Shown here in pieces: positions 25,107 through 53,089 of a DNA stretch of 64,000 nt. The stretch lies in NCBI RefSeq assembly GCF_001748385.1, contig NZ_BCLI01000004.1, positions 434,001 to 498,000 on the forward strand. The letters are read 5' to 3'. The stretch is from Vulcanisaeta thermophila. GTDB taxonomy: Archaea; Thermoproteota; Thermoprotei; Thermoproteales; Thermocladiaceae. Positions within the stretch are counted from its first letter, which is position 1. Every line of letters starts with the position of its first letter. The notes beneath the pieces are model-generated. The model saw only the letters and a program-made list of their open reading frames with translations. It did not search any database and was not told the origin of the DNA. A program made the translations under genes and the position numbers.

Positions 25107-25162
25107 ACCCTAGTCATTGATGGTTGGTTTATAAAGCTGTGGTACAGGTTAGGAGGGCCTTC

Positions 25163-25220
25163 TTAATCAGCGTTCAAATCCCTCCTCACCTGTCAGAACA
25201 TCCCTCCTATCCTCACCCAG
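25163..25220 (-). ncRNA. C/D box sRNA, predicted guide for tRNA C56 2'-O-methylation
   Basis: Minus strand: box C GTGAGGA (25216-25210), 13-nt guide TAGGAGGGATGTT, D' CTGA (25196-25193), CAG spacer, C' GTGAGGA (25189-25183), 12-nt guide GGGATTTGAACG, box D CTGA (25170-25167). A TATA-like AAGGTTTAAG (25250-25241) puts the start about 4-5 nt before box C. The D guide pairs with CGUUCAAAUCCC, a tRNA T-arm (GUUCAAAUCC); the fifth nt from box D pairs with the C of UUC, that is C56. Thermoproteales such as Pyrobaculum are known to make Cm56 with an sRNA instead of aTrm56. C and C' are both GTGAGGA, replacing the U-U pair of the kink-turn by G-U. Confidence 0.88.
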
Positions 25221-25253
25221 GGTATTAATGACCAGGAGCTCTTAAACCTTACC

Positions 25254-53037: not shown

Positions 53038-53089
53038 TCAGCCCTCACACGCCTCATCAATGCTCAGTTGGTTTAGGTCTCTTCATTCT
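53036..53089 (-). ncRNA. C/D box sRNA (rmlC 3' side)
   Basis: Minus strand: box C ATGAAGA (53086-53080), 12-nt guide GACCTAAACCAA, D' CTGA (53067-53064), GCA spacer, C' TTGATGA (53060-53054), 12-nt guide GGCGTGTGAGGG, box D CTGA (53041-53038). A TATA-like GCCTTAAGC (53117-53109) gives a start about 1-3 nt before box C. Spacing is textbook (12-4-3-7-12-4). Targets would be UUGGUUUAGGUC (D') and CCCUCACACGCC (D, methylated at the fifth nt); neither RNA is in the window. Confidence 0.8.

Follow-up and report, generated by a model that had tools for sequence, protein, structure and literature searches.

The 64,000-nt stretch of Vulcanisaeta DNA analysed here, referred to as the window, carries a predicted box C/D sRNA gene between atpD (PF01813) and a gene of the SpoIIM family (PF01944), the flanking genes lying on the same strand. 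The AtpD protein encoded next to it is closest to those of Vulcanisaeta species, at 77–81% identity. The features of the locus are listed below, with boxes, guides and spacer read directly from the sequence.

25241-25246, minus strand: TATA-like TTTAAG, 25–30 nt upstream of box C and directly past the atpD stop codon
25162-25221, minus strand: predicted box C/D sRNA, its ends placed about 5 nt past boxes C and D from box order and spacing and from 11 syntenic Vulcanisaeta copies
25167-25216, minus strand: span of all boxes, from C to D
25210-25216, minus strand: box C, GTGAGGA (RTGANGA in orthologues)
25197-25209, minus strand: D' guide TAGGAGGGATGTT, 13 nt
25193-25196, minus strand: box D', CTGA
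25190-25192, minus strand: D'-C' spacer CAG, 3 nt
25183-25189, minus strand: box C', GTGAGGA
25171-25182, minus strand: D guide GGGATTTGAACG, 12 nt, with positions 2-11 against tRNA nt 53-62 and position 5 opposite C56
25167-25170, minus strand: box D, CTGA, also seen in orthologues
25150-25157, minus strand: 3' element CCCTCCTA, complement of the D' guide, with a counterpart 3' of box D in 11/11 Vulcanisaeta copies

This anatomy is that of an archaeal box C/D sRNA, with the order C-D'-C'-D, guides of 10–14 nt and a short D'-C' spacer, and every element that the earlier note had described (the four boxes in order, guides of 13 and 12 nt and a 3-nt spacer) was recovered on the minus strand. A genome-wide search for the D'-C'-D pattern returned 18 matches, including the locus at 25167-25216, versus one for the reversed control. 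In an Rfam scan of the locus, C/D families were matched below threshold only, with 18.9 bits for sR2 (RF01139; gathering threshold 42) and 13.5 bits for sR3 (RF01133; gathering threshold 41); both share the C-D'-C'-D layout but carry guides unlike those found here. Elsewhere in the window, a further C/D sRNA candidate was observed at about 53038-53086 on the minus strand, consisting of a C box ATGAAGA, a guide GACCTAAACCAA, CTGA, TGATGA, a second guide GGCGTGTGAGGG and CTGA.

Boxes C and C' each deviate once from RUGAUGA (U5 to G). Their sequence, GTGAGGA, had been called a rare variant, which proved too strong: other C/D candidates of the same genome, as well as orthologues, contain RTGAAGA, ATGAGGA and TGAGGA, and the variant is better described as mild. 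Across 42 orthologues, box C has A (16 copies), T (15), C (9) or G (2) at position 5, and box D reads CTGA in 32, CGGA in 5, CAGA in 4 and CCGA in 1. Position 2 of box D was never other than T in the 15 copies with T at box C position 5, versus 10 of the 27 remaining copies (Fisher p = 0.007, relatedness ignored). In a k-turn, these two positions lie opposite each other (3b.3n), adjacent to the sheared G.A pairs. With regard to the promoter, the earlier proposal of a TATA-like element at the right distance gained support from TTTAAG and from an A+T maximum at -24 to -33 upstream of box C in the 42 orthologues, although the signal is modest in the single sequence. The A+T peak is consistent with a TATA box plus a predicted start a few nucleotides before box C.

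Pairing of the D guide with the tRNA T-arm

The D guide was compared with the 46 tRNA genes found with RF00005 in the Vulcanisaeta genome. The search for tRNAs with a matching T-arm, proposed in the earlier note, identified GTTC[AG]A[AG]TCC in all 46, and the guide pairs with 10–11 consecutive T-arm nucleotides in each of them, with at most one G.U pair. The paired stretch comprises guide positions 2-11 and nt 53-62 in every tRNA, and guide position 5, the fifth nucleotide upstream of box D, lies opposite C56 in 46/46 tRNAs, establishing the N+5 register on C56 that had been claimed. Over positions 2-12, pairing is perfect in 27/46 tRNAs and includes one wobble in 16/46; the remainder show a position-12 mismatch alone (1/46) or one wobble plus this mismatch (2/46).

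Opposite the G at guide position 1 lies G52 in 45 tRNAs and A52 in the remaining one. No tRNA among the 46 carries C at nt 52, so that position 1 never pairs and the 12-mer CGTTCAAATCCC given in the earlier note occurs in none of them; the complementarity it proposed thus holds for positions 2-11 and fails at position 1. A first nucleotide that never pairs is in keeping with reports that C/D guides are limited to 10 substrate nucleotides. Furthermore, the G at guide position 1 (25171, minus strand) is invariant in 42 orthologues despite facing G52 or A52 in the tRNAs of this genome. The mismatch appears to be maintained.

The D' guide and its 3' complement

The D' guide contains a core, GGAGGGATG, that is near-invariant in Vulcanisaeta. 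A search of 16S and 23S rRNA and of tRNAs yielded no convincing target site for this guide, the best having 9/10 pairs with wobbles or mismatches, and some early apparent matches to tRNA were antisense and were discarded. According to a review, one of the guides lacks a target in the tRNA-targeting sRNAs of Pyrobaculum (PMC7994747), a pattern that the target-less D' guide matches.

In addition, all 11 Vulcanisaeta copies (L103 to L113) carry a CCCTCCT-like element 8–15 nt 3' of box D, of which 7–9 nt are complementary to the D' guide. Both sides are altered in one Vulcanisaeta species (L111), with 9 pairs kept. A helix is predicted in 10 of the 11 copies even at 75°C, and in L113 the guide pairs with a second nearby complement instead. 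The other C/D candidates of the same genome lack a CCCTCC element and show complementarity to the D' guide of at most 6 nt; in other genera the element is not a rule, and it was rejected as a general trait there. The predicted helix encloses box D and excludes box C and, speculatively, could compete with k-turn formation. It is therefore conceivable, if rather doubtful, that the Vulcanisaeta D' guide has come to form a conserved hairpin with CCCTCCT, which could regulate how the Cm56 RNP assembles, either as a precursor switch or as a barrier at the 3' end.

Distribution of the sRNA and of aTrm56

In most archaea, C56 methylation is the task of one protein enzyme, aTrm56. A search of the 2.02 Mb genome, which is 99.8% complete, with the aTrm56 family (PF01994) returned no matches, and four archaeal controls did match. 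The absence postulated in the earlier note is thereby confirmed, and the same holds for all sampled members of the genus and for two families. In a survey of the class comprising 81 genomes, 44 from these two families (f1 and f3) and 37 others, aTrm56 was found in 0/44 genomes of the two families versus 34/37 of the others. The guide together with box D, GGATTTGAACGCNGA, shows the mirror image: exactly one copy is present in 42/44 genomes of the two families and none in the 37 others, and the reversed control of this pattern matched once across all 81 genomes. The two genomes of these families without the pattern are 54% and 76% complete. No genome among the 81 carries both aTrm56 and the guide, and none of the near-complete genomes of the two families carries neither, so that the two are mutually exclusive throughout the sample. 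A model trained on 29 orthologues retrieved no convincing copy from genomes outside the two families. The idea of a divergent Cm56 sRNA in aTrm56-carrying genomes was dropped, the matches being chance-like only. Outside the two families, the order is represented in the sample by one genome (G001), which has aTrm56 but no copy of the sRNA; the exchange would then postdate the divergence of G001. The simplest reading would be a single exchange in the common ancestor of the two families.

Conservation of the RNA itself follows the same lineage. The D guide and the C of box D do not vary among 29 diverse aligned copies, in which the D' guides diverge, and GGATTTGAACG is invariant in 42 genomes. 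With boxes retained in every orthologue extracted and exactly one guide plus D in each of 42 genomes, a tRNA-like antisense 12-mer in intergenic DNA with fortuitous C/D-like boxes is a practically negligible explanation that conservation already refutes, even though the T-arm sequence is common and its complement is present at every tRNA gene. A further alternative considered was that the conserved element is the 3' UTR of atpD or a leader of the SpoIIM-family gene and no independent RNA gene. In Vulcanisaeta the element does always lie between these genes, with atpD upstream and the SpoIIM homologue downstream in 11/11 copies. However, in other genera no AtpD or SpoIIM homologue was found beside the sRNA in the surrounding DNA examined, so that only the RNA is conserved, and the guide is unchanged despite its different genomic location. 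Furthermore, one TATA-like signal precedes the sRNA and another, at about 25127-25134, lies ~21 nt before the ATG of the SpoIIM-family gene, which suggests a leaderless mRNA for the latter. A UTR or leader is accordingly very improbable.

Interpretation and comparison with known systems

The interval is very probably a minus-strand box C/D guide sRNA with its own promoter, directing ribose methylation of C56 in place of aTrm56. As a functional prediction from sequence, the C56-guiding C/D sRNA put forward in the earlier note is supported by the T-arm match in 46/46 tRNAs and by the absence of aTrm56. We infer that the sRNA would be transcribed from the minus strand by this promoter and would assemble with L7Ae, Nop5 and archaeal fibrillarin, the last of which is encoded in the genome (E 1.2e-101). 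In practically every tRNA or pre-tRNA of the cell, the D guide would then base-pair with nt 53-62 and fibrillarin would methylate the ribose of C56, such that the guide-RNA route would stand in for the stand-alone SPOUT enzyme. Points against this reading are the departures from RUGAUGA and CUGA, seen in boxes C and C' and, for some orthologues, also in box D, the D' half, for which no target was identified, and the sub-threshold Rfam match. The unusual C and D boxes of some orthologues (D = CGGA or CAGA) could weaken RNP activity, and would be compatible with an sRNA that binds T-arms mainly as a folding chaperone or a quality-control antisense RNA rather than for C56 methylation. Nevertheless, the exact N+5 register on C56 is invariant in 42 genomes, the perfect anti-correlation with aTrm56 would be expected only if the sRNA replaces methylation, and Cm56 made by a C/D RNP has been reported for Pyrobaculum aerophilum; a chaperone or antisense role is therefore unlikely, with a small residual probability.

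Altogether, the guide RNA and its distribution indicate that a guide RNA took over from a protein enzyme throughout two families, in 44 sampled genomes. This offers a clean case for how protein-only and RNA-guided routes of modification take each other's place, as well as a natural system in which to ask why Cm56 is indispensable. In addition, a conserved guide with a never-pairing first nucleotide is now available for study.

Compared with aTrm56 (a SPOUT methyltransferase; PF01994, COG1303), the Vulcanisaeta sRNA has the same predicted product, Cm56, but would reach it by an RNA-guided route, whereas aTrm56 is a protein-only enzyme, missing from this genome and from 44/44 genomes of the two families. 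The closest parallel is Pyrobaculum aerophilum, in which, as Renalier et al. reportedly described in 2005, a C/D sRNA guides tRNA Cm56. Reviews attribute Cm56 in this organism, the only one they name for guide-RNA Cm56, to L7Ae, Nop5 and fibrillarin with a C/D RNA and not to Trm56 (PMC7912444, PMC5372735, PMC6313347). None of the papers retrieved gives a description of the sRNA in Vulcanisaeta. Herein, a known mechanism is thus extended by a case well supported at the sequence level, the main addition being the lineage-wide mirror distribution. The guide-RNA principle is the same in both organisms, with a C/D sRNP in place of aTrm56 for Cm56, and both families of the order that lack aTrm56 contain RNAs with this guide. 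In contrast to the P. aerophilum sRNA, as known here through reviews, the Vulcanisaeta copies lie at a genomic position of their own, differ in the D' guide, carry RTGARGA C boxes and sometimes CAGA or CGGA D boxes, and are followed on the 3' side by a complement of the D' guide.
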